Assembly (NCBI GenBank): GCA_003990745.1
Contig: RBNI01000420.1
Span: forward strand, 1 to 31,590
Source of the DNA: Jimgerdemannia flammicorona
Taxonomy: Eukaryota > Mucoromycota > Endogonomycetes > Endogonales > Endogonaceae
Direction of reading: 5' to 3'
Length of the DNA: 31,590 nucleotides
Below are positions 1 through 30,900 of the stretch, piece after piece. The notes under the pieces are model-generated. The model had not been told where the DNA came from. It made no database searches and saw only the letters and a program-made list of their open reading frames with translations. How positions within the stretch are numbered: position 1 is the stretch's first letter; the number at the start of each line of letters is the position of its first letter. The position numbers and the translations under genes are program-made.

Positions 1-973
1 CAACCACCACCACTGCAACAGCACCAGACATAGCTATACTCTTGTTTGACAATATCTTCCGCTATCATGGTCTTCCTAAGATCATTGTTAGTGACCGAGA
101 CCCGAAATTCACCAGCCATTTTTGGAAAGCCCTCCATGCGCACCTTGGAACAAAACTTGCACTATCTACAGTCTTTCACCCTGAAACTGATGGCCAAACT
201 GAAAGAATGAACCGAACTCTGGAACAAATGCTAAGAAACTATATTTCCTACAAATAAGATGATTGGCACGAACATCTCACTGCAGTCGAGTTTGCCTATA
301 ACAATAGCAAACAAGCCTCTTTAGGAATGACTCCATTCTTCGCCAACACTGGACAAAACCCAAACACTCCTCTAACACTCATCCGAACCACTGAAGAACC
401 CTCTACAGTTGAAGCTGTTGAAGAATTCTTACTCTGAATGCGTAATCTAAGCCAGATCGCAATTGAGAACTTATCATGAGCTCAAGAACAACAGTCACAG
501 TATGTTAACCAACATCGCTGAGAAGAAACCTTTGATATTGGAGAAAAAGTTCTACTAGACATCTGAGGATACCGAGTTGACAACCTCAAGCACAGACCAT
601 CTACAAAGCTGAACAGTAAGTTCATCAGACCATTCGAAGTCATTTCACAAGTCTCTCCGACCTCCTACAAATTGGCACTACCAGACACTATTAAGATTCA
701 CCCAGTCTTCAATGTCCAACGTCTCAAGCGATATAATGACAATGATGATGAACTATTCCCAAACTGAACTACAGAACCACCTGCATCTGTCATTATTAAT
801 GACCAGGAAGAATACGAAGTTGAACAAATCCTCAACAAATATGGCCACAAGAACCACCCCAAGTATCTCATTAAATGGAAAGGTTATCTGATCCATGATG
901 TAACATGGGAACCCAAGACCAATCTCCAGAATGCTACTGACTTAGTTTAGGAATATGATTCCTTGAACAACTG
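1..973 (+). pseudogene. Ty3/gypsy element A, 3' end of pol: integrase core and chromodomain (broken)
   Basis: This is the C-terminal part of a retrotransposon polyprotein entering from the left edge. The integrase core shows the second catalytic Asp in [13 protein letters not shown] (about 87-120) and the catalytic Glu in MNRTLEQML (about 208-235), with the typical [14 protein letters not shown] stretch between. A chromodomain follows at about 810-960 (EYEVEQILNK, YLIKWKGY, VTWEPKTNLQNA), which in chromoviruses directs insertion to chromatin. The frame is open except for stops at TAA 255, TGA 435, TGA 476, TGA 520, TGA 565, TGA 766 and TAG 947. They sit at positions where related elements have Gln, Trp or Arg, so they are explained by C-to-T or G-to-A changes. 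The first catalytic Asp lies left of the window. The copy is not functional as read. Confidence 0.9.
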
Positions 974-1110
974 AAATCCGAATACTCTAACATCTACCAG
1001 CACACAACATATACTACTCCCTTGAACACTATAATTATCATGAACCTAATCAAGAACTCAGTAAGACAGAACAAAATTAGAAGGCCCCGACAAGAATGTC
1101 GAAAGCTAAG

Positions 1111-1121
1111 AAGGGGAGAGT
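1111..1121 (+). other. polypurine tract of element A
   Basis: An AAGGGGAGAG-type purine run lies immediately before TGTAAG, the probable start of the 3' LTR. In Ty3/gypsy elements this primes plus-strand DNA synthesis. It fits its position, 140 bases after the end of pol. Confidence 0.55.
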
Positions 1122-1301
1122 TGTAAGCGCACAACCTCCAAGCCACAGAAATCACATGCAATCTCCGAACAAATCTAGAAATCACCTGCAAATTATGAAG
1201 CTGAGTCAAACAGAAGTCACAGTGCACAAAGCTGAGTCAATACCAAGTCACGGAACACAAGATTCACACAAATGGAATCTTACCAATCCAGAACAAATGC
1301 A

Positions 1302-1307
1302 TATATA
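1302..1307 (+). promoter_or_regulatory. TATA-like box upstream of the LTR open-frame relic
   Basis: TATATA in the context GCATATATACCC lies about 70 bases before the ATG at 1377. It could drive the LTR-borne frame. Supported by position only. Confidence 0.35.
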
Positions 1308-1376
1308 CCCAGCCTCGAGATGCGTTGAAACAGAGAACCAAAACAAATAACAACCACAACTTCCAAATACACAAAC

Positions 1377-2459
1377 ATGACCACCAAGATCTACAACTGC
1401 ATCCGTGCTGACATTTGGAATGCCATTGTCAACCAAGCTACACCCCCTCTGCCCCTCATGAATATCTACAGCCAAGCACCTCTCTACTTCATGGAAGCCT
1501 GATGGAATGCCCTGAACATGCTTAACGAGGCCCACCAGATTGGACAAATCTCAAGCTACTACCAGATCAGCTGCCTCCTAGAAGATATGGTTGAACACCA
1601 CTATGATACAGACATTACCCAGATGTCTCAACACCAGAAGCTCATTGCCTGCAAACACCGAGAGCTCTTTTATGAGTACAGCATCTTTATTCCCTATCTC
1701 CAAGTCACTACCAGCGAAATGGTTGCTATCCTGTCCTATGGCCAAATCGATGACATGATACAAGAACTCAACCACAAGTATCTTGAGTACGTTGAAACCA
1801 CAGACAGAACCTTCCCGCACCCCGATGACCACATCCTACAAATGCCCCAAGTTGGGTACGCCATGAAGGACATCTATGATATAATCAACTTCAACAAAGA
1901 TGAAGCAGAAGACAATGATCCTTCCGACGCTGACATGACCTCAAGCCAAGGATCTCTTCCAACTCTGATCACACCGCCAACTCTACCGATGAACTTACAA
2001 CAGTTCATAACCACATACGAGGCTTATTGGGACAATGACCACTAGCACGAATACCAATCTGCATTCACCCCTGATTACTTCAACTACAACGAAGAAACTG
2101 GAGAACACAACCTGTACCTTCAGACAACCCTCGAGATCGAACCAACCACTCCACCACCCGAGTATGAGTGACATGAACCACAACCGCCAGCATACTACAA
2201 CCCTGCTACTCATAGTACTGTAACCTACAGAAGATATGCAGACAGCGAATCTGATGAAAATGAAGATAATGCACCACTTCTTCACCCCCCAATACCTTAT
2301 CCAACATATGAGACAGATGATGCTATCCTGTAGGATAGAGATGAAGTTCCAATATATTATTACCTCAGCCAATAAGGAGAAGTAATCTATGAACCACTCT
2401 TCCTAGACGACTACTTCATTAGAGATGATGTCATCAAAGACTATCCAGATAGTGCCTAA
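1377..2459 (+). pseudogene. LTR-embedded open-frame relic, unknown acidic protein
   Basis: A single frame runs 360 codons from ATG 1377 to TAA 2457, interrupted only by TGA 1500, TAG 2043, TGA 2169, TAG 2331 and TAA 2373. Each of these is one transition away from a Gln, Arg or Trp codon. The predicted product is acidic: Asp and Glu are rich throughout, with a Pro/Thr-rich stretch around codons 185-205 and 255-275 and an Asp-rich end (DDYFIRDDVIKDYP). I see no membrane segment, zinc knuckle or catalytic motif, and I do not recognise the family. It lies after pol and inside the presumed LTR, where most Ty3/gypsy elements have no gene. The first residues are MTT, as in the comparable relic of element C, but I see no convincing overall similarity. 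Confidence 0.55.
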
Positions 2460-2647
2460 ACCATAAATAGTCTAGCAGTCATAGTATAGTTAGATTAGCC
2501 TTGTATGATGTGACTGTGAACTGACTCAGCAGTCAGATGATCTCTTGACATGTCAGATCACACTTGTACTACATGACTGCATTCCGACTCAGCAAAGCAC
2601 TTAGTGCTACACCCATATTTAGCATAGTCCAGATAGCCCCTCACTAG

Positions 2648-2655
2648 TATAAATA
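2648..2655 (+). promoter_or_regulatory. TATA box (TATAAATA) in the element A LTR
   Basis: TATAAATA followed by a C-rich stretch lies downstream of the LTR frame. It is the best candidate for the promoter of the genomic RNA. The LTRs of elements C and D carry the same TATAAATA motif. Confidence 0.5.
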
Positions 2656-3134
2656 CCCTCTCCCCCAGACCTCAGAATCTCAGACCTGAACAATCTGAAC
2701 ACAACTCCTGAGCACTTCCCCAATATCCCCCCACATAACTACTCCTAGTATAGCAATATCATGAATAGAGAATAAATCTATTTAATAACCCACAAACCAC
2801 TCTTAAGTAAAATCCGCTCTTCATTAGGTCCTACTCCTAACCCCATCACGAAATTTTCTAATTGGGTATTGTCTGCAGCGATACACCAATTCAACTAAGC
2901 TGGTCTTTGTTTCTTGAACTTCCTGAAATACGGAAAATTCTGAACATCCAGAACAAGTCTGAAAAAGGACTTTGGTTGAGACGTCAACCCGAACTTGAAA
3001 TCAATAAGCGTAGAGGACGTACTCCATATGAAATTGATCTTGACCATAAGAAAACGGTCTTCCAGAATATCCAGAACTTCCAGAAAACCCTTCCAGAACT
3101 ATGTAACGGTTACCCTAAAAAGCAACTCTCTTAC

Positions 3135-4150
3135 ATATAGTCTTCACTATTGCTTTCTTCTTCAAAGTTTTCAATAGAGTAGACTTTTATCTTCTTAAAC
3201 TAGATTTCATTCTTCTGATTTAGTGGGTTTGAGTCCCTTCAATCACTTCCTCTATTATAATATTCAGTAGTATAGTATCTAAATTATCTATAGTGAAATT
3301 ATTGAACTTGAGCTCTGTCTCAGACAGGATATCTTCTTTCTTCCTAATATCTTCTGTTATCTCTGAGAGAATAATCTTAGTTCTTTTATAGTATATACTC
3401 TCTATTGTCTTGTGGATAGCTTCAATTTTTACATATAGTGAGTTTTTCAATCTATCCAATCAATTGGTCCAACTTAGAGTTGAGGTCTTAGATTTCATTT
3501 TTCCCTTTCTTCTATTTTTTGGCTGGCTTTCTTTCTTCAGATCTTTCTTATCCTTGGAGGAGTCCTAATAGGGTTTTGATTAAGAAATCTTTCCTATCAT
3601 CCTTTTTGTTATAATTACTCTAGGTGGTTCTTTGTCTAATATTGAAAAATCCTTAAACTGCATCTACTTACTCCACAGACCACCTAATATCTATGGTATA
3701 GAGCAATGTTCAAGGGAATTTTATTTATAAAGGTCATTGGGCCTATAATGTCTTAGTTGATAGTATTGAATCAGTTATATACATTCTCTTTTCTTTATTC
3801 TTATGATAGATTTTTGGGCCTTGTAGTAGGTCTCATTTCTTATATACTTCTCAATGAGCCAGTGGATCATAGCTTCATACTCTACTTCTTAGGTTGCTGC
3901 TACATAAATGACTGCTTTAAGATCTGAATATATATTATTTCTTACTTAAGTGAAAATTCCCCTAGCTAGTTCTCTGAGTTGGGTCTTATAAATAGAAATT
4001 TTTCTTTTAGTAGAGAGGTTCTTCAAGACTACTTTATTCTATTAAGAAATTCCCTTGAGTCTTCTTCTAGATATCCTACAAAGATTAGTATTAGAGTAGC
4101 CATTTTATCATCACTGTCTTCTAGTTATAGTTCTAATTCTGATTCTAATT
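3135..4150 (-). pseudogene. AT-rich relic, coding trace on the minus strand, unrecognised
   Basis: The clearest open frame is 3220-3459, minus, 79 residues. It is Lys/Glu/Ile-rich and looks like a coiled coil (for example KTIESIYYKRTKIILSEI). A second trace on the same strand at about 3780-3960 reads DLKAVIYVAAT, then EVEYEAMIHWLIEKYI after a stop. A third at about 3990-4135 reads DDKMATLILIFVGYLEEDS. These could be parts of one decayed gag-like or other mobile-element gene. Stops are frequent, and base composition matches the heavily mutated neighbours. No function is assigned. Confidence 0.3.
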
Positions 4151-8959: not shown

Positions 8960-9190
8960 TGTTATGTAGTGGTCACTGAGTCTTTCAAATATGTCAGATT
9001 CTCTTTAAGGTGTATCTCTTAGACTAACCACAAGTTTGTTATAAGCAAGTTCTTATTAGAGTACCTTCTTAAGATCTTATAGTCCTCAAACTTCTTATAT
9101 TTAAACTGTCTTGTTATCTCTTAGATTGCTTGTATAGAATTGAGAGTAAGTGAACTAGAACTGACTTTATTTCAAATTAAATAAGAGAGG

Positions 9191-9198
9191 TATTTATA
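9191..9198 (-). promoter_or_regulatory. TATA box of the element C LTR
   Basis: TATAAATA on the minus strand, at the position equivalent to TATAAATA at 24832-24839 in the second copy. It lies downstream of the LTR-borne frame and upstream of the presumed transcript start. Confidence 0.5.
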
Positions 9199-9465
9199 TA
9201 AAATATAATTCAATAGTTGCTAAGTTATAAAGCTAAATATAAATTCTAATAACCAAATAAAATACTGGAACATAGAAAACTACAGTTGTAAGTATAAGTT
9301 CAAGTATCTATATAAATGATTGCACAAGTTCAGGATGTCAGTAGAATTTTGGTAGTATAGAAAAAGGATACCAGAAGAATTTCTGAGTTATACAAGATCA
9401 GAATGTCAGAAGAATAACAGCTATACAGAAAAAGGATACTGGTAGAATTCAGTGTTACCAAGGAC

Positions 9466-9700: not shown

Positions 9701-10104
9701 TGTAACAGTTCTAGTTTCTAAATGAGGAAGCGACTAGTTCTGGTAATCCTAAGTAGTTCGAAGAGATACTAAGGGTTCAAGTGTTCTCAAAGGATTTCTG
9801 AGAGAAAATATTCTGAAGCTTTATTCATGAGAACAAAGGAGATATTTATACAAGATCTGAAAGAAGGATCTGGAAGGATCTGAGAAATCAAAGGAAAATG
9901 CCAAGAGGAAAGTTCTCGGCAAAGATGACAAATAATGATAAATAAAGTTCTACAAGTTTCCAGGGCATTCAGTGGCTAACTAAATAAGTACTAGTTAATG
10001 CTCGGTGCCAAGAAGGAGATTTCTAAATATGCAGAAAGTGCCAGAAGGTTATAGAATATTCAAGAAAGACAGAGAAAAGAAATAAACTATGCTAAAATGT
10101 TACA
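9701..10104 (-). repeat. 3' LTR of element D
   Basis: Begins TGTAACA and ends TGTTACA, perfect 7-base inverted termini. A minus-strand TATAAATA box lies at 9843-9850. It aligns end to end without gaps with 14831-15234. About 26 differences are visible, all but one of them transitions, many at CG or at CA/TG. Confidence 0.95.
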
Positions 10105-10117
10105 TCTCCCCCTCCTT
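10105..10117 (-). other. polypurine tract of element D
   Basis: On the minus strand AAGGAGGGGGAGA directly precedes the 3' LTR. It would prime plus-strand synthesis. Confidence 0.85.
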
Positions 10118-10437
10118 AAGAATCAATGTCCTCATTGAATTCTCAAAGTTACACATAATAAACAATAAGACTAAAAGAAACCACAAATTAAATATGTCGA
10201 CTCATTGGCAAGGATTGGCTGTCCATATATAAGGCGAGGGCCAAAGTATTATCTTGATTGGATGAGAACTGGTTTGAACCTCATTGGTTGCAGGATTTAT
10301 AGGGTTCTCCTGTATCTCTTATTTCTGATGCTATATCCCTTAGAGAGCCCTGATGCATAATGTGCCTGATCAGCACAGTAGGTCATCTACTATCTAAGGG
10401 GAGAACCTCACGGGCAGTCAATGAGTTCCTTTTTGCT

Positions 10438-13400
10438 CAAACTCTTGGATGTGGTCTTGAGAGTTCTTGAGATTGATAGCAGGTTCCCAAGTGGCATCAT
10501 ATTCAGGGTAACCCATCCACTTGACTAGGTATTCTGTGTGACGGTATCAGACTCACTTGTCTAAGATTTTCTCGACTTCATACTCAATGTGGTCTTCAAC
10601 TATGACTGGTGCTGATAGTGTCAGAATTTGGCCAGGGTATGGGGGTGACTGGTTCCAGGCCTTAAGTTGTGACACATAGAATACTGGGTGTATATGCATA
10701 GTTGTTGGCAAGTTGAGATGGTAAGACCAGGTAGAGACTTGCTTGGTAATTTTGAAGGGTCCAAGGTACTTGGGCTGGAATTTGGCTGACTGGCAGTTGA
10801 CTTGAGATTGAACCTTGATGTTGTCAGCTTTGAGTAGAACCATATCACCAATATTGTATATGACATCTCGCCACTTCTTGTCTGCATACTTAGCTTGATG
10901 TTGCTGAGCCTTTTGCAGGTTTGTAGTGATGATCATGAGAAGAGAATCCATTTTGTTGATAAGGTTCTGGGCTGTGGGGACTTGAGTGTGACTGGATTGC
11001 TGAAATTGGACTAGACTTGCAGGGGTCTCGGGGTTTTGACCGTGAAGTAGCTGGAATGGGGAAAGGCCAGTTGATGATTGGTTGGCATTGTTGTAGGTGA
11101 ACTCGACATAGGTCAGATAGTGGTCTCAATCATCTTGCTCATAAGACACATAGTTTCTGAGCATTTGTTCAAGTGTTCTATTCATTTGCTTGGTCTGTCC
11201 ATCAGTTTGAGGATGGAAGGCAGTGGATATAGCAATTTGGATTCCAAGGGTCTTGAAGAGTGCTTGCCAGAAGTAACTTGTGAACTTGGGGTCGCGGTCA
11301 CTGATAATTACTCGGGGAAGTCCATAATGGCAGAAGACAGTCTTGAAGAAGATTCTTGCAATTTCTGAGGCAGTGGCATTGGTTGTGGTTGGCTCGGTGA
11401 TTGTAATCTTAGTGAGACAATCCACAAACACAACAATAGCATCATGGCCTGTTTTGGTTCATGGGAGTTGCACAATGAAGTCCATTGTGACTTGTTCAAA
11501 CTTCTTGGTCAGAATTGACAAGGGTTGTAGAAGACCGGCAGGTGCTTGATTGCTTGACTTGTTTCTTTGGCAAAGATTGCAGCTTTGAACATACTCCTTG
11601 AATTCCTTGAGCATGTTTGGCCAGTAGTAGTCTTATTGGATATTCTTGATGGTCTTCTCAGTTTCCAGGTGACCAGCTAGTGGGGAGTCATGATGTTCAT
11701 GAAGGATCTTGTACCATAGTTCAGGGTTGGCAGGAATATATACTTTGTCTTAATAGTACACAAGGTTGTCCTTGATGGTGTACCTTTCCTTGAATTCCTT
11801 GGTGTTTCTTTGTAGAACCAGAGAGTCTTGTTCATAAGCCTTCTTGATTTGATTGAGAAATTCAGGTGCCACAGTGACTTGTAAGATTGCAGTAAGGTCA
11901 GGTCTTCTTGACAGTGCATCTGGTACAACTAGAGTTTTGCTGGGCTTGTAGATGATGTTTGGGGTAAAGGTCTGAAGTAATTGGCTTCACTTGGCTTATT
12001 GGCAAGAAAGGGTTGGTTGAGTGTTAATGTACTGAAGGGACCTGTGATCAGTGATCACGTCAAACTCAACTCCTTCTAGGTAGTGTTGCCAGGTCTTGAG
12101 AGCATGCATGATTGCCAGGAGTTCCTTTTCATGAGAAGCTAGCTTTTGTTCCACTGGGGACAATTTTCTTGATTCAAAGGCAATAGGTTGGTGTCCTTGA
12201 CCATCATCTTGAGAAATGACTGCACCAATGGCAAAATTAGATACATCTGTAGTAACCATGAACTTCAAGTTTGGGTCCATGTTTCTAAGGACAGGTGCAT
12301 GGGTTAGGCAGTTCTTGAGTTCTTGAAAAGCTTGTTGACAGAAAGCATCCCAGATGTAGGGGACATAGAGGTCAGAGTTGGGTTCCTTTCGCAGGAGGTT
12401 TGTCAAAGATTCTGCAATGCCAGAGAAGTTCTTGACAAATCAACAGTAGTATCCAGCCAGACCAAGGAAGGACCTGAGTTCAGTGAGGTTTGCTGGTACA
12501 GGCCACTGTTCAATGGCTTGTATTTTCCTTGAGTCTACTTGAATACCTTTGGCTGATACAATGTGTCCAAGGTATTTGACTTGGTCCTTGAAAAATTCAC
12601 ATTTCTTGAGCTTTGCATAGAGCTTGTTCTCACAGAGGATCTTGAGGACTCGTTCGATGTGCTTGAGGTGTTCTTCTTCGGTGCTACTGTAGATCAGGAT
12701 ATCATTAATGTATACCAGTACAAAGATATACAGCTGATCCTTGAAGACAGTTTGCATGAGGTCTTGAAAGGTTGCTGGTGCATTAGTGAGACCAAAGGCC
12801 ATGACTAGGAATTTGTAGAGTCCAAAGGGTGTCATGAAGGCAGTCTTGGGTATGTCTTCTGGCTTGATTCGAATTTGGTGATACCTAGAGGTAAGATCGA
12901 TCTTGGTGAAGTACTTTGCATTCTTGAGAGCATCAAAGATTTGATCTATGAGCAGTAGCAGATAATGGTTCTTGACAGTAATCTTGTTGAGTGCTCAGTA
13001 GTCTATGCATATTCACAGAGTATCATCCTTTTTCTTGACAAAGAGGACTGGGGAGCCAAAGGGTGACTTGCTTGGTTGAATGGCTCCTCACTCAATAAGT
13101 TCATTGAGTTCCTTCTTGACTGCTTCAATTTCAAGTAGAGACATATGGTACATTTTCTTCTTAGGTATAGCTGCATCAGGTACCAACTTGATTTCGTGGT
13201 CATGGTCTCTTGAAGGTGGTAGGCCAGGTAGTTTGTCTGGGAAGACATCCTTGTACTTGTTCAGTAGTAACTTGACACTTTCACTAATTGATAGCTTCTT
13301 GTCTTTTTTCTTTGATCAGATCAGTGCTACAAAGGCACAGGTAGCTTTCTTGAGGGCCTTCTTGAATTGAATTGCTGAAAGAGTAGCAATTAGGGTTCTT

Positions 13401-13912
13401 GTCTGAGTCTTGTCTGGCTTGATGGTAATGTTGGCTCCATTCTGAATCAAGGTGACTTCATTCTTGGTCCAATCAATCTGAGGGTTGTGCTGTGTAAGCC
13501 AGGGTTTACCTAGGATCAGGTCAGAATCTCCTAGTGGTGCTACCTCGAAATCTAAGCATTCTCAGTACTTCTGGATCTTGAGGGGAAGTTTAGCAGCAAT
13601 TGAGTCAATTGATAAGGTAGTGCCATCTGCAGTGACAACTCCACCATTCTTGTCAGCTGGTTTGGTAAGAATCTTGAGCTTGTTGATGAGGTTCTTGTTG
13701 ATGAAGTTCCCAAAAGCTCCGCTGTCTATGAGAACATTCAACTGATTGACCTTGAGTATCTTTGGACAGGACCAGGATCCTCTTTGGTTTGGCAGTTTTC
13801 TTGGGATATTTGGTTGCAATATGGCCAGACTGACGGCAAAAGAAGCAGGCTGCAGCCTTCTTGAAGCACTCCTTTTCCTCGGGTGTAAGCTTGCCTTTCT
13901 TATTCTTGTCAA
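10438..13912 (-). pseudogene. element D pol: protease, RT, RNase H, integrase, chromodomain (nonsense-broken)
   Basis: The polyprotein frame reads in order: protease NVLIDSGAFGNF (about 13700-13740, catalytic D-S-G present); pre-RT YKDVFPDKLPGLPPSRDHDHEI; RT with CIDY*ALNKITVKN (12985) and VYINDILIYSS (about 12690), where the usual YxDD is YIND; RNase H with TTDVSNFAIGAV and FESRKLSP (12170-12260); integrase zinc region HHDSPLAGHL...CNLCQRNKSSNQAPAG; integrase core [16 protein letters not shown] and NRTLEQML; chromodomain YLVKWMGYPEYDATWEP (about 10480-10530). In-frame stops occur for example at Trp, Arg or Gln positions near 10550, 11128, 11455, 11633, 12438, 12988, 13018 and 13091. Gag lies upstream in another frame and overlaps it. 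The product is inactive as read. Confidence 0.9.
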
Positions 13913-14815
13913 TGATGTCTAGGTCCATGGGGGCAGGTCCAACAGTTCTGACTTTGGGTTTCTCCCTTCTGTGGTTGTTGTTGTTGTTGTTGAAAGGTGG
14001 TCTCTTCTGTTCAAAGTGGTGACCATAGGTGATGATATCAAACCTATCAGCAATTTTCATTGCTGTATCTAGGTCCTTGGGTTCTTCTAGTTTGACATGA
14101 ACTTGGGTTTGACCTTTCAGGCCTCGGATGTACTTGTTGACCTTCTCGTCTTCCATAACATGTGATAATTCTAGCAGGATTGACAGGAATTGTATATTGT
14201 ATACTTGCACAGACTTGAGTTGTTTGACATTTGCCAGATGGTCTCGCGCGGCCTTAGTGCTGTTGACTGGTTTGAATTGGCCTTGAATGGTATCAGAGAA
14301 TTCGCCCCAGGTCTTGATTCAGCCAGAGAATCTGGTATTCTGGACATGATTTCACTACCAGATTGTGGCATTCCCTTGGAGGAGTGTGGCAGCAAATTGG
14401 ACTAGTGTTGCTTCTTCCAAATTCGTCAGCTCTCCATATTGCTCCAATTGGAAAAGCCAGGCATTGGTAGACAGTCCTCCTCTTTGACCATCAAAGGTGT
14501 CAGGCTTCTGAGGCTTGATAGTGACTGCTGTTGGATGTATTGATGTCAGTAGAGGTGCAGAGGTATGAGCAGAGGCCTTGCTTTCCTTTCTTTCCATGCA
14601 TTCTTGAAGTTGAGCAATCTGAGCTAGTGCATTCTGCAAAAGACTCTCAATGGCCCCATTTGACTGAGTAGGGTTTTGCTATTCCTCTTCTTCTTGCTGA
14701 TTGTATGAGGTATTGCCTGGACCATAGATACTGTATGAAGGGTTCCACCCATTGTCCTCTATAGTATTGTGACTGATATCTTGAGAGGTGTCTTGATAAG
14801 GCTAGGTGTAACTTC
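13653..14815 (-). pseudogene. element D gag (capsid and zinc knuckle, broken)
   Basis: Retrotransposon capsid protein, which would package the RNA. Visible parts in order: Gln/Glu-rich leader; PDTFDGQRGGLSTNAWLFQL (about 14450-14510), typical of the retrotransposon gag fold; LLQGNATIW followed by TAG TGA; WGEFSDTIQGQFKP; QFLSILLELSHVMEDEKVNK; an Asn run; and a zinc knuckle CFFCRQSGHIATKY near 13800-13850 whose last Cys is Tyr (a G-to-A change). No clean ATG is left near the start. The gag frame stays open to 13653, well past the start of the pol frame at 13912, so pol lies one base forward (+1) of gag. That may be the element's expression mechanism or an indel. Confidence 0.85.
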
Positions 14816-14820
14816 ACCAC

Positions 14821-14828
14821 TGCTACCA
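14821..14828 (-). other. primer binding site of element D
   Basis: TGGTAGCA on the minus strand, two bases inside the 5' LTR. TGGTAGC is complementary to the GCUACCA end of initiator methionine tRNA as known from yeast, so this tRNA is the likely primer. Confidence 0.65.
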
Positions 14829-14830
14829 AG

Positions 14831-15234
14831 TATAATGGTTCTAGTTTCTAAATGAGAAAGTAACTAGTTCTGGTAATCCTAAGTAGCTTGAAGAGATACT
14901 AAGGGTTTAAGTATTCTCGAAGGATTTATGAGAGAAAATATTCTGAAGCTCTATTCATGAGAACAAAGGAGATATTTATACAAGATCTGAAAGAAGGATC
15001 TGGAAGGATCTGAGAAATCAAAGGAAAATACCAAGAGGAAAGTTCTCAGCAAAGATGACAAATGATGACAAATAAAGTTCTACAAGTTTCTAGGGCATTC
15101 AGTGGCTAACTAAATAAGTACTAGTTAATGCTTGGTACCAAGAAGGGGATTTCTAAGTATACGGAAAGTGCCGGAAGGTTATAGAATATTCAAGAAAGAT
15201 AGAGAAAAGAAATAAACTATGCTAAAATGTTACA
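14831..15234 (-). repeat. 5' LTR of element D
   Basis: Partner of 9701-10104, same length, no gaps. Its outer end has CG-type decay (TATAATGG where the partner has TGTAACAG), while the other end keeps TGTTACA. The minus-strand TATAAATA box is at 14973-14980. Confidence 0.95.
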
Positions 15235-21754: not shown

Positions 21755-24034
21755 ATGCGAGTATCCTTGATAAAGAGTGATAATCCCGGGGAAATGAGGG
21801 TCCGTGTCAAAGTCTCCGCCGATGATCATCCAGAGGTAGAGCTCGTCGACAGCCATTCTTTCAACCTCAAAGAATGCGAAGATCATCGACCCGTTACCGT
21901 CGAGGTTTTCACCAAGGGGCCCCTGTCGAGGCACCTCAGGAACTACGGAAAGATGTTGTTTAAGGCTCTCTTCTCAACAAATGAGTCTAGTATCGCCCGG
22001 AAACTGCTGAAGGAAATATCGCCAGCACCCGGTCGCGTCCTGCTCGAGCTCAACGGCGACAGTGACCTCGACATCATCCCCTGGGAATACGCGTGGACTG
22101 GAGAGGGATATCTGGTTCATCGTTGCATGTTCGCTCGGGTCCCCCAATGGAAATATCATCAGCTGCCTAGACTTCCGCTGCGCATTGTCGCCGTCCTTCC
22201 GGATCCTATTATTCCGCCAGATCATCCCGAAGCGAACCTTCCGGATTTGCATTTGAGCGACCAATTCCAGAACTTCATCAACAAACTCCACGCAAATGCC
22301 AAAAAAGTAATATTGGAGAGAGTATTTCCGCCAACCGTAGACCAGATGGGATTGCTATTCACAAACAAACCCGAGACGGCCACAGTGCTTCATTTCATGG
22401 GGCATTGTGGGTCGAAGAACGGTGCAAAGGCTCTCATCTTCGAACATAACGAATCTGGCGAACACGAATTCGTTGATACGTTACACCTCGTCAGCTTGTC
22501 CAAGAATCTACGGCTTGCCTTCCTCTCCGCCTGTGAGACTCGTGACATCGCCCGAGTCCTGTGCGAGCATGGCATTCCGTACTCCATCGGTTCGTACTGC
22601 TCCTTACCAGACGACCTCGCCCGCAAGTTTGAATCCAACTTCTATCAACTCCTCGCCGGCGGCTACACAGTCGAAATGGCGATGTGGAGGGCGCGCGTGT
22701 CTTTTCAGGACCGTGACGACGTTCGCCAAAGCGACTACTTCTCTGGGGCCATGGTGCTCTACTCGTCCACGTTTCGGAAAGATGACGGCGCGTTCATGTA
22801 CGAAGAGAGCAAACCCACAGTCGAATTCCACATGCCCCCCAACAACCTCGAGGACATCCCCACTACGTCGACGTTTCGTGGACGTAAAAAGGAACTTGGC
22901 GAATTGAACTCTATTTTGAGACGTATGGCAAATCGCAACACGGAGTCTTGTTTCGTGTGCACCATTGAAGGAATCGGCGGCCAGGGCAAGACGGCGATAG
23001 CCATTGAAGCAGTAAGAAGAACGGCACATCTCTTCCCAGGTGGAATCTTCGCTTGGACGTTCGATAGCGAGCCGATATCTATCGTTACATATTTTCAACG
23101 ACTGGTTGATGCCGTATTTCCGGAAGAGATTCTATCGAAGTTGAGAAACCGGACTGGCGGCGACGACGGAATGTTAGGGCGGGCCATTATCAAGGAGTTG
23201 GTTTCCTATCCGACATGTTTGTTGATTATCGATCATGTCGATGCCTTGAAACATGCAGAGGTCCTGGGCAACTTGGATGCTGTAGAGTTGTGTAAATGGC
23301 TTCGGGGAATTGTATTGACATCGAATTGCGCCGTCAAAATACTTGCAACATCGCGCGAGCCTCTAGGTTGGACGCGTGAGAAAACGGTGCATCTCGACGG
23401 CTTAACTGACGTTGACAGAGGAGTGGAGTTATTCATTCGAAATCTTGACGCAAAGGCAAAGCAGAGGATGGAGGAGACAGATGCAAGGCAGTTGGTGCAG
23501 GACCTCGTTAGGCTTGTAGATGGACATCCACTGTCTTTGGAATCTATTGCCTTTGCGTTCCACTTACCACAATATCGCAATGCTTCGCTTGAAGAACTAG
23601 TTCGTGAACAGTACATTGCCATGCTAGTAGATGGCTCACATGGATGCAGAAACCTTGAAACCCGTTTCCGACCAACGGTCAACACGCTCCCAGCGCAGCA
23701 GCGCCTAATATTATATATGTGTTCTCTTTTCACTGGACCAATCACAGGCGGGGTGATCGAATTCGTTCGTCATTTTGTTGAGAACTTCGGAGAATCTCCC
23801 GAAAGGATCGATTCTGGTGGGGCCATCGTAGAGAGACTGCAACAACTATGCACTCGCGGATTATTGGCTAAAAAAGATGACGAATACAGGATTAACATTG
23901 CGCTTAAGGAAGGCGTGAGACGGTGTAATTCTGAAATGGAACTACAACTTATTTTGCGGAAATATGACATCTACTGTGATACATTTGTAATTGGCATTTC
24001 CAGGCCATCTGAACATGGTGAGAAATGTAACTGA
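21755..24034 (+). CDS. CHAT-NB-ARC protein (fungal NLR-like), C-terminal sensor absent
   Basis: A 759-residue intact frame; an in-frame TAA 36 bases upstream fixes this ATG. N-terminal CHAT domain (about 85-340), a caspase-like cysteine peptidase fold: IIPWEYAW at 107-114, catalytic-type His in LHFMGHCG (His217) and Cys in FLSACET (Cys260). A linker follows, then an NB-ARC/STAND ATPase (about 375-620): FRGRKKEL, Walker A GIGGQGKT 406-413, Walker B LLIIDHVD 489-496, ILATSRE 529-535, and GHPL 590-593. A winged-helix-like region follows at 640-735. In such proteins the ATPase is a switch that releases the effector when a C-terminal repeat domain senses a ligand. Here no TPR, ankyrin or WD repeats follow; the frame ends soon after, and retroelement sequence begins at 24095. 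It may be an immunity or self/non-self gene cut by a transposon. Domain calls are firm; the role is inferred. Confidence 0.9.
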   Translation: MRVSLIKSDNPGEMRVRVKVSADDHPEVELVDSHSFNLKECEDHRPVTVEVFTKGPLSRHLRNYGKMLFKALFSTNESSIARKLLKEISPAPGRVLLELNGDSDLDIIPWEYAWTGEGYLVHRCMFARVPQWKYHQLPRLPLRIVAVLPDPIIPPDHPEANLPDLHLSDQFQNFINKLHANAKKVILERVFPPTVDQMGLLFTNKPETATVLHFMGHCGSKNGAKALIFEHNESGEHEFVDTLHLVSLSKNLRLAFLSACETRDIARVLCEHGIPYSIGSYCSLPDDLARKFESNFYQLLAGGYTVEMAMWRARVSFQDRDDVRQSDYFSGAMVLYSSTFRKDDGAFMYEESKPTVEFHMPPNNLEDIPTTSTFRGRKKELGELNSILRRMANRNTESCFVCTIEGIGGQGKTAIAIEAVRRTAHLFPGGIFAWTFDSEPISIVTYFQRLVDAVFPEEILSKLRNRTGGDDGMLGRAIIKELVSYPTCLLIIDHVDALKHAEVLGNLDAVELCKWLRGIVLTSNCAVKILATSREPLGWTREKTVHLDGLTDVDRGVELFIRNLDAKAKQRMEETDARQLVQDLVRLVDGHPLSLESIAFAFHLPQYRNASLEELVREQYIAMLVDGSHGCRNLETRFRPTVNTLPAQQRLILYMCSLFTGPITGGVIEFVRHFVENFGESPERIDSGGAIVERLQQLCTRGLLAKKDDEYRINIALKEGVRRCNSEMELQLILRKYDIYCDTFVIGISRPSEHGEKCN

Positions 24035-24094
24035 AATGTGGTGATCAGTTCATTTCAGTGCACTTGATCTAACATCTTATTATATTTATAACAG
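24018..24094 (+). other. candidate intron at the 3' end of the NLR gene
   Basis: The donor GTGAGA follows CATG at 24017, a branch-like CTAAC lies near 24069, and the acceptor AACAG is at 24094. Splicing removes the TGA at 24032 and adds 48 codons ending at TAG 24238, within the element C LTR. The alternative is that the TGA at 24032 is the true stop. Confidence 0.45.
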
Positions 24095-24112
24095 GAATAT
24101 CCACTATGCTAG

Positions 24113-24604
24113 AATGGCAACTCTGCAACATTCAGGCTCACGCTGGTGATGATGCGGACAGGACTTTTGGAATACAATACTATGATATTGTCAACATTCC
24201 TGGTACTAGCCACTATATTCTCCACTATTACCCTCAATAGTGATAAAGTAGAAGACTTCTGGCATCCCATCCTTCAGGACAACCCAGACCAATTTCTGCA
24301 AGGATTGATCTCAGTATTCCAAGGCCCAAGTATCCAAGTTAGATCTCCCCAAGACCCTACATTTGTTCCCTATTTTGTGAAAGAGAACCTCATAGACTGG
24401 AGAGCTCCAGACCTCCTTCCTGCCACTGAATATGATGATATCATTAGCAATGATGTCATCCTGCATAATATATATAAGACATGTGACGAAGCATACAAAG
24501 TATGTGAAATGTGTGATGATGACAAATTCGTGGACCTCATCTCCTTCAAAGACATCCTGACCTCTGATGATGAAGCCTCTATAGTTCTGAAAATTCTGCT
24601 CTAA
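24113..24604 (+). pseudogene. LTR-embedded frame of element C, better copy
   Basis: Open from the TAG at 24110 to TAA at 24602, at most 163 residues, without its original N-terminus. It contains STITLNSDKVEDFWHPILQD, FLQGLISVFQGPSIQVRSPQ, FVKENLIDWRAPDLLPATEY, then an acidic C-terminal half rich in Asp (SNDVILHNIYKTCDEAYK, MCDDDKFVDL). Two Cys pairs occur near the end (CDEAYKVCEMC). I see no catalytic motif and do not recognise the family. It lies inside an LTR and upstream of its TATA box. Agreement with the decayed minus-strand copy shows real past coding. Confidence 0.6.
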
Positions 24605-24831
24605 GTCTCTTGGTTACACTGAATAATTCTAGCACTGGCATTCTGATGTAATACTGAATAATGCCAGCACCAGTATTCTGATGTGACACCGAATTATACC
24701 AGTATTCTGAACCTGTACAACCATCAGTACCAACCCTGGAACTTAGCAGTTTTTTCTATCCTGGTATTTTATTTTAGTTATTGGAATTTATATTTAGCTT
24801 TATATCTTAGCAACCATTGAATTATATTTTG

Positions 24832-24839
24832 TATAAATA
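24832..24839 (+). promoter_or_regulatory. TATA box of the element C LTR
   Basis: TATAAATA, about 240 bases before the end of the LTR. The same box is at 9191-9198 in the other copy. Confidence 0.55.
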
Positions 24840-25050
24840 TCTCTCTTATTTCTTCTGAAATAAAGTCAGTTCTAGTTCACTTATACACAATCTCTTGCAA
24901 GCAATCTAAGAAAGAAGTTTGAGGACTATAAGACCTTGAGAAGGCACTCCAATAAGAACTTACTTATAACAAACTTAAGTTAGTCTAAGAGATATATCTT
25001 GAAGAGAATCTGGTATATTTGAAGGACTCAGCAACCACTACATGATAACT

Positions 25051-25912: not shown

Positions 25913-27948
25913 ATGTCAAGCAGCAAGCAAGCCGATGCACATACTAGGTTGGGTGGACCTGAGGCTTTCGACTGGCAGCATGTTGGGAGGAGGCATGGGC
26001 TGGGGATGGGGTCTTTCAGTGGCTTAAGTGGACTGGGCAGCTTGGGTAGTAGAGGCGGCATCAGTGGGGGGGCTGGAGGACAGCAGGGGCGGAGCTTTAC
26101 AGATATGCTGAGGGCTGGGGGTTGGTCGATGGGAGCCCACAGTGATCAGGCTGGAGGGAAGGGGAAGCAGAAGGCTGAGGATACTGGGGGAGCTGGGCCT
26201 TCGCTGGTGGGAGGGGGGGGGAAGTGGAGGGACTGCTGGGGATAGTGGTAGGACTGCTGATAGTGGCATGATGGTGAATTAGGAAAAAAAAAGAGATGTG
26301 ATGGCTGATGGTCAGGGGGGGCAGGGGATCCCGATGTGGAAGGGGGACCTGGCAGATGATATGACAGGACTGGTGGTGGCCCCATTGCTCAAGAAGTCAA
26401 TCTCAGAGTTCATGGCTACCTTGTGCTTCCGGGGCTTGACAGTGATGGTGAGGATGGTCCAGGGGCTTATTTCGAGGCAGGTGGCTGGTGCAGCCTCGGT
26501 AAAGTTCTTGAAGGGTCTGGAGGGGATTGAGGTGGGCTTTGAGGAGGCTGGCCTACTGGACAAGGCCATGAAGACTGGAGTGGTGGTTGGGGAGGTAGTG
26601 GTTCCCATAGTGAGGTACTTAAGGTGGGACCCCAGGGTGGTACAGCTTCTGGTAAGGGGGGTGCCCACAGTGACTAAGGAGGAGACTAGGAGGAGGGTGG
26701 AGGAGGTGATGGTAGAGTATGGTGATGTGGTGGACATAGGCTTTCAGTTGTGGGAGGGGACAACTTTCAGGATAGGTGACATCAATGTCAGGATTTGGTT
26801 GGTAGGGAAGAAAGCCACCAGGAAGACAAGTGACTGGCCCTTGGTGATGATGTGGGGGGCCATTGTCTGTAAGGTGTCAAGGGTGAAAGGGAGTGAAGAG
26901 GAGGAGGAAGACTTGTTGGAGGCACTAGAGGAGTTGAGTGGTACTGTAGAGAGGAGGGTGAAGGCCTGGAAGCTGTATGAGGAGTTGATGCATCTGGAGG
27001 TTGTGGATGGGAAGCATATCTGTATGGATAAGAAGCAGTGGAAGTGGGCCCAGGGATGCAAGAGGCAGAGGGAGCTGTTGGCGAGTATGACAGGAGAAGT
27101 GAAGAAGAAGTCAGTTGGAGCTGAGGAGTCTGGAGGTGCTGAGACCAGTGTCTGGGCTGGTAAAGGAGGAGAGGAGGTGGAGGTGAAGGAGGCAGGGGCT
27201 GGGGGGAAGCTGGACAAGAACCCATTTGCTGATGGTACCTTCAAAGTGTGGGAGCCGGAGTTGGAGGCCACCCCCCCCCCACTTATCAAGAGGGGCCCAG
27301 TTGTGAAGAGAGGGACGACGGAGGATACATGGATGTAGGAGGCCCAGCAGGTGCACTTTGGGGTCCCTGATATGGGGCAAGGGGGTCAGGTGGTGGCAGT
27401 TGGCAAGGATGAGCTGGTGGATGTCTCTGAGGAGGAGTGGGATGAGGCTGCCAGTATAGGAGCTGATACTATGATGCTGGATACAGGGCAGCCAGGAACT
27501 CCAGGAGGGAAGGAGGTGGGGAACTTGTTATAGATATACAAGGTGATGGATAATCTCACAGCAGAAGCTTTGGGGGAAGTGGACCTGTGGGCAATACCTG
27601 AGGAGCATTGGGCACAGATTCTACAGGGTGATGGAATGGTGGAGGCACTAAAGGTGGAGATTCTGGGTATTTTCCTGGAGGAGGAGGGGTATGAGGTTGA
27701 TGAGGTGAGGAAGGCAGAGCTGGGGGTGGTTGCTGGTGAGCAGGCAGCCTACTGCTGGGCAGAGCATTATGGTTTGTAGCTCTGGCAGGAGGCCTGTCTG
27801 GAGTATCACAAGGAATTTGAGGAGTATGAAGATGGGGCAATGGTAGAACTTCTGAGAGAGTTGGCAGCACAGGAAGTAGGGGAGAGGGAACGAGCTGCTG
27901 AACATGTCTTGGACTTGGTGCAGGAGGAGCAGAATGCAGACTTGTAGA
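25913..27948 (+). pseudogene. LINE copy 2 ORF1 (frame-broken)
   Basis: Presumed nucleic-acid-binding ORF1 of a Tad1-like LINE. It starts at ATG 25913 (MSSSKQADAHTRLGG) with a Gly/Ser-rich N-terminus and runs to TAG 26244. It continues one base forward from about 26298 as a long frame. The break lies near runs of nine G (26213-26221) and nine A (26284-26292), typical slip sites. The second frame is 550 codons long, interrupted by TAG at 27336, 27531 and 27777 and ending TAG 27946. It holds a Glu/Lys-rich middle (SEEEEEDLLEALEELSGTVE, coiled-coil-like) and an acidic C-terminal part. No zinc knuckle was recognised. G is very frequent on this strand. Confidence 0.65.
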
Positions 27949-27978: not shown

Positions 27979-30900
27979 ATGAACAGTACAACCAACATTT
28001 TCTCCTTGAATGTGAATGGGTTAAGGGGCTCTGGGCAGCATAAGAACATTTTTACTTGGCTCAAGGGATTGGAGGCTGATCTCTTTTTACTACAGGATGT
28101 TTGATGTGAGGATGAGGATGATCGGGTAGAGTGGACAAGGGAATGGGGTGGGGCTACTGCTTGGTTTGGAAAGATAGCAATTTTGGTAAGGAAGGGTAGA
28201 GGTGACTTGGGGGATATCAGGAGCTGGGGTGATTGCTTGGTCTGGGGAGATTGGTATTAGCCAGGGTGGGAATTGGTGAAGGTGGGCTCTTGCTACTGCC
28301 CTGTAGCTAGGGGTGATAGAACTACATAGATTAGGGGGTTGCTGGAGGAGGGTATTCTCTTGGAGGAAGGGGTTGACATGCTCAGTGGGGACTTTAATAT
28401 GGTTTGGGATCAGTGTCTGGACAGGACTGATGGAGGGAGGAGTGCCAGGGGTAGAAGTGGAGGTCTGGATACATGGGAGGAGGTGGAGACATTGAGCTCC
28501 TTGGTGGATATGGGCAGAACAAGGTGGGGTGATGCCAGGGTCTACACACATTGGTTGAATAGCTTGGGCACAAGGATTGACTGGATTCTGATGGTGGAGT
28601 GCTGGGGTTCGGATGTTTGGAAGGCATTGGAAGTGGAGTGGTGCCCATGGTCTGATCACTGGAGACTGTTGGGGCAGGGGCAGTTTGGGGGGAGTGGAGA
28701 TGGACCTGGACATTGGCACCTTAACTCCTTTCTGCTGGCTGAGAAGGGGTTGTGGGAATTGTGGGTGGAGGACATTCAGGTGAAAGTTTTTAACTAGAGG
28801 CATGAGGGTTTGCCTGTGGCTGTCTGCTGGATGAGATTGAAAGAGACTGCAAGGGTTTATTGGGAAGGGGCTGGTAGAGAGGCCAGGAGGCAGAGGAGGA
28901 GGTGCATGAGGTGTGCTTCCAGCAGGCTGAGGAGACTACAAATGGATTGGACAGATTTGCTTACTGTTGTTGGGGCAGAGGATTGGAGGATTGAGAGGGC
29001 GAAATTGGAGATTGTGGAACTACAACAGGTATTGAGAGAAGAGGAGGAGATTCATATGCGGGGCATGGCTGCTAGGCTACAGTGGCAGGGGCTCGAGGAG
29101 GGTGAGCAGTCTACTAGGTACTTATCAAGACTTCTTAAAGCTAGGAGAGTGTGATATCAGTAGGATGGGGTCCTGGATGCTGATGGGGACATGATACACA
29201 GCACACAACAGATCTTAGGAGTGTTGAAGGAGAGATGGCAGGGCTTGTGGAGTGAGGGAGAAGGGGGTGCAGATGAGGAGGAGATTGCAGATATACTAGA
29301 AGAGTGGGGGCCACCACAAGTAGCTGGACTGGGTGACTTGATCTTACTGGTGCAGGGAGAGGAGATCCTGAGTATCCTGGCAGCAACTAAACTTGAGATG
29401 GTACCAGGGGAGAATGGATTGCCATGGGACTTCTGGAAGAAGATGATAAACATCCCCGGAGTTTTGGGTGAGATGGCTGCTCTCTGTGACCATGTCCTTC
29501 AGAGCGGTGAGTGGGTTGGAGAGCAGGATCTTGGGCTGGTGGCCTTATTGTACAAAGACAAGGAGAGGAGGGAAGACTGGAAGAACTGGAGGCCAATCAT
29601 ACTTCTGGATATAGACAGGAAGATGGTGACTAAGGTGATTGTTGCACAGCTGCAGAAAGTTGCCCAACAGGTGCTGAGGGAGGAGCAGTAGGGCTTTGTT
29701 GGGGGCAGACTTATAAGAGATGGGACTGCATGGGTTCATAGTATCATTGAAGGGGCCCAGGCCTGTGGCCTGGATGGAAGGTTGGTCTTTTTGGACCAGG
29801 AGAAGGCCTATGACCATGTATGGCAGGTGTGGCTGGGCAAGGTATTGGACCAAATTGGGGTTCCCCCAAGGTTTAGGGCCTCTATGTTGAGTCTGCTAGA
29901 GAGCAGTCAGGCAGCTCTGACATGTAATGGTCACCATAGGAGGGCATTTTCCTTGGGAAGAGGAATTCCCCAGGGGGACCCTCTGTCCCCTATTCTTTAT
30001 GCCCTTTCACTGGAGCCATTGATGGATAGGATTTGCCAAAAGGTGGCAGGGCTCTCTATATATGGTATAGTGTGGAAGGTGGGGGCCTTTGCTGATGATA
30101 TAGTGGTTGGACTTGGGTCTATAGCAGATGTAGAGGCACTTCAGGAGACTGTGGAATGGTATGAGGCTCACTTGGGGGTGAAGCTCAACTGGCATAAGTG
30201 TGAGACAATGGTGCTAGGGAATGGGCTAGTGGGTGAGGACATCATTGGAACAATTGTCCCTACTGGTGAGGTGGTGTGGTATCTGGGCATCTTCCTCTCT
30301 ATATTTGGTTCTGTCTTGCCATGAGTGTGGTGGGAGAGCAGGGTGAAAATTTGGTTAGAGACCCTTCGAGGATGGGGAGGCCACCATATCTCTCTAGCAG
30401 GGCAGGTGTCAATCCTGAATGTATATTGGTTCCCCAAGCTGTGGTATGTGGCATATCACCTTGACTTCCCAGTGTGGGTAGTGAAAAAGCTGATGAAGGT
30501 GGCTAGGGATTGGATTTGGGCAGGGAGGAGGTCCCAGGTCAGTTGGGATACTCTTGCAAGGCCAGTAGTCAGGGGAGGTCTTGGACTAGTGGACTTTCCT
30601 AAGAGGCTGCACTGCTTGTGAGCCTGGTGGTTGAAGAGAGCTGTAGAACTGCAGAGCAGTGGTTGGGAAGGTATGGGAGATGCAAACATCCCCTTGGGGG
30701 TCCTCCGGAGATCTGCTCTCTTTGGTGGGGCTGAATGGAATTTGGCGGCTGCAGTTCAAGGGCTTTTGGTGGGGCATGGCTGATGGAGCATACCAGATTG
30801 GCCTGCACTGGCAAGATAATGAGGGGGAGGCAGTGTGGGGGCCTAATATGTGGCATTGGGATAGATTGCTTCTGGGGGGTGCTCCACTTGCTATGTTTGA

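Follow-up and report, generated by a model that had tools for sequence, protein, structure and literature searches.

The stretch analyzed here (the window) comprises all 31,590 nucleotides of Jimgerdemannia flammicorona contig RBNI01000420.1 (C420), and it carries on its plus strand a gene for a protein with an N-terminal CHAT domain and an NB-ARC nucleotide-binding switch, the effector and the switch of a NOD-like receptor (NLR). The contig belongs to a 134.8-Mb assembly of 7754 contigs, to which all paralog counts given below refer. The open frame runs from the ATG at 21755 to the stop codon at 24032-24034, giving 759 codons without a stop if unspliced, and the start MRVSL or MRISL is common to several homologs of the window protein. 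The single intact frame reported in a preliminary description of this DNA was confirmed, while its gene end at 24094 proved to be the end of intron 1. As judged by comparison with the paralogs, the gene extends past 24034, through an intron and into exon 2: the exon 1 donor position is common to the window copy and the paralogs, the paralog models place an intron of 64-90 nt there, and window exon 2 is 62% identical to exon 2 of paralog L011 across 24097-24204. Several homologs terminate near the same place as the unspliced window frame (...GI..EDGE or similar), probably because their predictions were blind to introns. The predicted spliced product has 802 amino acids, the last few of which come from a retroelement. 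The fungal origin proposed earlier was supported by a glucan synthase profile (1324 bits in the genome, no matches in 14 controls), a eukaryotic rRNA operon, whose 5.8S end resembles that of Mucoromycota, and short introns; a chitin-synthase-type profile reached 816 bits in the genome and also matched four bacterial controls, and the Chitin_synth_1 profile had no matches in the genome, with the controls silent too. No near-identical copy of the ITS stretch turned up among plasmids, which is uninformative as to origin.

We detected the truncation of the window copy within exon 2. The exon 2 similarity stops by 24225 at the latest and copies of a repeat elsewhere in the genome align from query base 7, corresponding to 24221, indicating that the gene was cut by a long terminal repeat (LTR) retrotransposon. 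The repeat was scored at 40 places, window included, of 2426 candidates, and five same-strand pairs of copies are 7.2-7.3 kb apart, a spacing as for the two LTRs of one element. The remainder of exon 2 had no match within the window (E up to 1), the second NB-ARC (NB-ARC 2) and the Sel1/ankyrin (ANK) part known from the paralogs had no match in the 7365 bases past exon 2, and pattern search of the window gave no leucine-rich repeat (LRR) exon; the C-terminal repeat sensor of a tripartite NLR was not found in this copy. Describing the locus as one CHAT-NB-ARC gene had captured its domains and missed the intron, the 3' part cut away by the retrotransposon and the C-terminal domains of the paralogs. 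The window protein, if made, would be a sensor-less executor or non-functional.

There is somewhat less than an even chance that the window copy is a dying pseudogene, from which the retrotransposon removed the domain encoded by exon 2 (domain X), NB-ARC 2 and the repeats, and in which exon 1 is open since the insertion is recent. The cut at about 24221 and the missing 3' parts agree with this, as does the clear decay of other copies, such as L033 (12 stops) and L037 (10 stops), whereas the 759 codons of the window frame are free of stops and a short CHAT-NB-ARC protein could still serve as a helper. The ratio of nonsynonymous to synonymous substitution (dN/dS) also speaks against decay, though it reports past constraint only: for the window copy against L010 and L011, its nearest of the ten paralogs compared, it is 0.18 and 0.16, respectively, in CHAT, and in NB-ARC 0.32 and 0.41, indicating that constraint acted on the gene during most of its history.

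Table 1. Features of the CHAT-NB-ARC gene and of the inserted element, in window positions.
Feature	Position	Strand	Details
Exon 1, CHAT-NB-ARC gene	21755..24017	+	754 codons + 1 nt; phase-1 donor at end
CHAT domain	22004..22723	+	Pfam, residues 84-323; by fold residues 1-351
His217, putative catalytic His	22403..22405	+	motif HFMGH
Cys260, putative catalytic Cys	22532..22534	+	motif LSACE
NB-ARC 1 + winged-helix region	22835..23980	+	residues 361-742 by fold; Pfam stretch 386-599
Walker A GIGGQGKT	22970..22993	+	residues 406-413
Walker B LLIID	23219..23233	+	residues 489-493
TSR sensor motif	23348..23356	+	residues 532-534
GHPL (GLPL-like) motif	23522..23533	+	residues 590-593
Intron 1	24018..24094	+	77 nt, GTGAGA...AACAG, phase 1; corresponding intron in paralogs
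Exon 2 start	24095..24220	+	first ~42 residues of domain X, then interrupted
LTR of LTR retrotransposon	24221..25043	+	start from repeat copies; end approximate

The CHAT domain (PF12770) scored 58.4 bits against a cut-off of 24 in the Pfam search of the window protein, and the structure model of its N-terminal part matched Craspase and separase, corresponding to the caspase/separase-like fold. The N-terminal CHAT with His217 and Cys260 in CHAT-type motifs, as first described, was thus recovered by both profile and fold, with both motifs at these residues. We compared 31 sequences (alignment A4), namely the window, ten close homologs (all 12 except P0002 and P0004) and 20 loci from L010-L032, a set of 23 from which L026 (internal stop) and L031 and L032 (short matches) were excluded. 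His217 is kept in 29 of the 30 rows with letters at this position (Tyr in P0006; L030 has a gap) and Cys260 in 28 of 31 (Ser in P0007 and L028, Tyr in L025). The CHAT of the window copy, with its dyad intact, is a putative cysteine protease, as predicted from these residues. We consider it unlikely that CHAT is a non-proteolytic scaffold or interaction domain, with death or signalling proceeding via something else: the replacements of Cys in three rows and of His in one would suit such a role, but the window copy and almost every aligned relative retain the dyad, and structurally the domain aligns to known proteases. The PADLOC search gave no match for the window protein.

The first switch (NB-ARC 1) of the window copy has the full motif set of an NB-ARC STAND protein, including Walker A, Walker B, TSR, the GxP motif (GHPL) and the winged helix. 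Its structure model (residues 361-742) matched the NB-ARCs of plant resistosomes and CED-4. The four short motifs were named in the preliminary description at these same residues, and motifs and fold together uphold the NB-ARC assignment. In the profile search the window copy scored 17.8 bits against the Pfam cut-off of 23.5, which the first NB-ARC of the sibling on contig C3740 exceeded with 27.3 bits. Three weak NCBIfam matches cover the switch region, each far under its cut-off. The GK of Walker A is kept in 26 of the 31 rows of the alignment, and the Arg of TSR is not kept in most relatives. The rows with broken Walker A, together with the losses of Cys and His, suggest that not every family member is capable of proteolysis or switching. 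Among the metagenome relatives, P0008-P0011 have Walker A deleted or broken and CHAT kept, and are possibly switch-less CHAT proteins.

The window gene belongs to an expanded family. The genome profile search detected 40 CHAT matches on 40 contigs, every one over the cut-off, and a search with the full window protein gave 78. Sixteen of these, the window among them, span 700 or more of the 759 residues; the 15 paralogs in this set are 54-63% identical to the window protein. The CHAT-NB-ARC combination was previously called uncommon, and this does not hold. One source uses 19 Pfam N-terminal domains for fungal NLRs, CHAT among them (PMC9815663), and reviews describe fungal CHAT NLRs, some clustered with gasdermins, and the activation of fungal gasdermins by CHAT proteases (PMC10197012; PMC12881547). 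CHAT NLRs are thus already known in fungi; the present family differs by the second NB-ARC, X, Sel1 and, at three loci, LRR predicted in the paralogs that keep the 3' half (the siblings). A separate TPR-CHAT gene of 987 residues (L053:1904-4864) has a C-terminal CHAT of 188 bits, the best CHAT match of the genome. At L029:3-1409 (minus strand) an open reading frame (ORF) with a different NB-ARC-like switch (GLGGMGKS) stands beside a CHAT-NB-ARC copy.

In the siblings, domain X (~140 residues), for which profile and fold comparisons gave no decisive match to a GTPase-like fold, follows the shared exon 1 donor; exon 2 has 50 matches in the genome, and its length is 414-429 nt in the six loci with an open splice model. 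Among the 22 paralog loci with 767 or more bases past exon 2, 21 carry a second NB-ARC downstream of X and on the same strand (L030, L038 and L009 are duplicates of L039, L043 and the window, respectively). The three loci scanned with Pfam gave 27.5-43.9 bits for NB-ARC 2 and also confirmed Sel1 and ANK. Sel1/ANK comes next in six of the seven loci with more than 1.5 kb, the exception being L049, and also in L033. In 8 of the 10 loci scanned, a pattern search detected a 42-nt microexon (14 residues) with conserved splice ends between X and NB-ARC 2. In L049 the 42 nt are present but the acceptor AG is GG, and in L048 the donor GT is GC. Spliced models joining exon 1, X, the microexon and NB-ARC 2, with the last-exon acceptor approximate, are open and all in phase 1 in six of eight loci, L026 and L021 having no open spliced model. 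A short acidic tandem repeat (DSIDD units) was observed within domain X in exon 2 of L027 (798-1427, minus strand).

It is unlikely, in our estimate, that the siblings are instead two co-oriented genes, a CHAT-NB-ARC-X executor and an NB-ARC-Sel1-ANK-LRR sensor, acting as paired NLRs. Each half does have an NB-ARC of its own, and P0003, P0005-P0007, P0015-P0018 and P0020 are listed as separate proteins, the gene callers probably being intron-blind. An in-frame ATG stands just before NB-ARC 2 in 14 of 18 loci, at one of two sites: the first occurs in six loci (L019, L021, L022, L026, L039, L049) and the second in eight (L012, L014, L016, L017, L020, L027, L046, L051). This favors a separate gene, but no ATG site is common to all 18 loci, L015, L018, L043 and L048 having neither, and the frame upstream of the ATG site is similar across the L039 group. 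The distance from the X match to NB-ARC 2 is merely 133-360 bases, and the conserved splice ends of the microexon and the open phase-1 joins likewise argue for a single gene.

Three siblings (L039, L043 and L048) are predicted to end in LRRs. In each, the ankyrin exon runs into a half LRR and then a phase-1 donor, and joining it to the following 84-nt LRR exons keeps the frame open through 9 exons in L039 (8 under stricter filters), 11 in L043 and 1 in L048. The repeats have 28 residues and are of the type NSIGDEGARALAESLKQNTTLTTLNLY. The LRR_6 profile scored 231 bits on the L043 piece, and the solved relatives of the LRR piece include ribonuclease inhibitors, NLRP chains and 5irm/5irl (NOD2), corresponding to the ribonuclease-inhibitor (RI) type. 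The in silico joins are open from NB-ARC 2 through to the LRRs in L039 and L043; L048 is open from ANK to its one LRR exon, and its NB-ARC 2 frame is broken. The combination of NB-ARC and LRR in one gene is predicted in silico for siblings, the LRR form for these three loci only. The siblings thus have the C-terminal repeat sensor (Sel1, ANK, LRR) in splice-consistent predictions. Within the sequence covered, pattern search gave no LRR exon in L046, L049, L051 and L054; in L051 the ankyrin frame, and in L054 the Sel1/ANK match, extends to the end of that sequence. The mean identity of the LRR exons is 0.80 within L039 (28 pairs), 0.85 within L043 (55) and 0.81 between the two (88), which gives weak support to concerted evolution. 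LRR units upstream of the CHAT match in L042 and L034 were left out of the LRR count, as they may be a neighboring gene's; those of L042 (5045-6236, minus strand) lie on the same strand as the CHAT gene, perhaps as the end of a neighboring family member.

Taken together, the family layout most likely reads CHAT-NB-ARC-X-NB-ARC-Sel1-ANK(-LRR). We regard it as likely, from the gene models, that the siblings are single-gene, double-switch receptors of the form CHAT-NB-ARC-X-NB-ARC-Sel1-ANK-RI-type LRR, with a core shared with Chloroflexota and symmetric 84-nt LRR exons whose skipping or shuffling, with the frame preserved, could vary the sensor. On balance, the evidence also leans toward the window holding the effector-and-switch half of a member of this expanded fungal NLR family, with its 3' half cut off in exon 2, and toward the siblings being, probably as single polypeptides, protease-armed death switches. 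In such a receptor, the ANK/LRR part would sense a non-self or altered-self ligand, the NB-ARC switches would exchange nucleotide and oligomerize, and the clustered CHAT domains would cleave a substrate, for which a gasdermin-like pore former is the best-precedented candidate; the cleavage could leave the cell killed or walled off.

A number of observations weigh against this interpretation. The NB-ARC of the window copy is below the profile cut-off, Cys is lost in three and His in one of the aligned sequences, and Walker A is broken in four. The NB-ARC 2 match is broken or partial in six loci (L021, L033, L037, L048, L049, L054), L028 has no NB-ARC 2 in the 996 bases past exon 2, and the ATG before NB-ARC 2 would suit a separate gene. 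P0002 and P0004 are CHAT-NB-ARC-ANK proteins with a single NB-ARC seen, and L025 reads directly through into an unrelated C-terminus: its frame (262-3717, minus strand) continues beyond the usual exon 1 end, and Tyr replaces the catalytic Cys. No recurrent partner gene stood out in the wider flanks of 16 loci with the family masked. The best 45 flank rows were the NB-ARC 2/Sel1/ANK/LRR exons of the family, shadow frames of those, or an ankyrin ORF, and the recurrent neighbors of the unmasked flank scan were rejected as shadow frames of the family itself. The animal gasdermin profile had no matches in the genome and none in all controls, hence it cannot discriminate.

The best named relatives outside this genome are bacterial. 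P0021 (Ktedonobacteraceae) and P0022, both from Chloroflexota, have the colinear layout CHAT-NB-ARC-TPR. Their CHAT shares 27-28% identity with that of the window; their NB-ARC is 29-30% identical to the fungal NB-ARC 1 and 33-34% to NB-ARC 2. They have one NB-ARC followed by TPRs, and, in contrast to the siblings, no X, Sel1, ANK or LRR was seen there. Near full-length relatives of P0021/P0022 were among the 80 loci retained, of at least 88, in the scan of bacterial and archaeal genomes; they come from Dictyobacter kobayashii (L059), Ktedonospora formicarum (L060/L061), Oscillochloris (L057) and one bin each of Ktedonobacteraceae and Anaerolineae. Ktedonobacteraceae, Oscillochloris and Anaerolineae belong to Chloroflexota, as does Dictyobacter. 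In the NB-ARC tree, built from 45 rows with three other bacterial rows set as outgroups, NB-ARC 1 (16 rows) formed one group with support of 100/100 and NB-ARC 2 (18 rows) one group with 98/99. These two groups and eight Chloroflexota-type rows were separated from the three other bacterial rows with 97/98, while the branch joining NB-ARC 1 to the Chloroflexota type is weak (83/64) and the order among the three groups is weakly supported. The tree and the colinear relatives fit a shared origin of the CHAT-NB-ARC core of the fungus and Chloroflexota.

The window CHAT region matched Craspase TPR-CHAT/Csx29 and separase in structure, whereas in the window gene CHAT is fused to a STAND switch and no CRISPR partner or separase arm was seen. 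The siblings resemble animal NLRs (NOD2, NLRP3) in their RI-type LRRs and differ in having NB-ARC and CHAT, with ANK between the switch and the LRRs; animal NLRs carry NACHT. The fungal CHAT NLRs and gasdermin-linked CHAT receptors (HET-Q2-like set) share, as far as the excerpted accounts go, the N-terminal CHAT and the nucleotide-binding switch, with repeats in many. Unlike that set, the siblings have two NB-ARCs, X, Sel1 and, at three loci, RI-type LRRs, and the gasdermin link is described for the HET-Q2-like set. The nank genes (NACHT-ANK) of Tuber melanosporum likewise form an expanded family of fungal STAND proteins that has ankyrin repeats and exons of very small size, but they have NACHT in place of NB-ARC, with no CHAT mentioned in the excerpt, and their microexons are codon-sized and alternatively spliced (PMC4986451).

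A survey and reviews give the sensors of fungal NLRs as WD, ANK or TPR, without LRRs (PMC4986451; PMC12881547; PMC5658179); the first reports no LRR motifs among 5,616 candidates, nor any NLR hits in chytrids or mucorales (PMC4986451). A survey with LRR profiles covers eight Mucoromycota (PMC12258605). For the CHAT-NB-ARC-X-NB-ARC-Sel1-ANK-LRR layout we found no description in the titles and opening abstracts that our searches of open-licence papers returned. If NB-ARC and RI-type LRRs are indeed combined in a fungus, this would help to decide between a renewed origin of the NB-LRR layout in fungi and its oversight in poorly sampled lineages. Two switches in one chain, if true, would be a single-molecule analogue of executor/sensor pairs, and in-frame LRR exon cassettes would allow alternative splicing of a fungal sensor. 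From the bacteria, the colinear Chloroflexota relatives offer a point of comparison for the CHAT-NB-ARC core. The window copy alone is an ordinary truncated family member.

Further mobile elements were observed elsewhere in the window. Inverted copies of LTR-type DNA lie at 8964-9262 and 24768-25043 (86-92% complementary). The region 9703-15132 has two 300-nt direct repeats, 94% identical, as in a retrotransposon with LTRs; these enclose minus-strand ORFs resembling gag with a zinc knuckle and the end of a retroelement polyprotein. Past the LTR element that cut the CHAT-NB-ARC gene, plus-strand ORFs at 26283-27335 and 29692-30321, read by eye as non-LTR retroelement-like and including a reverse transcriptase, sit in a G+C-rich stretch.

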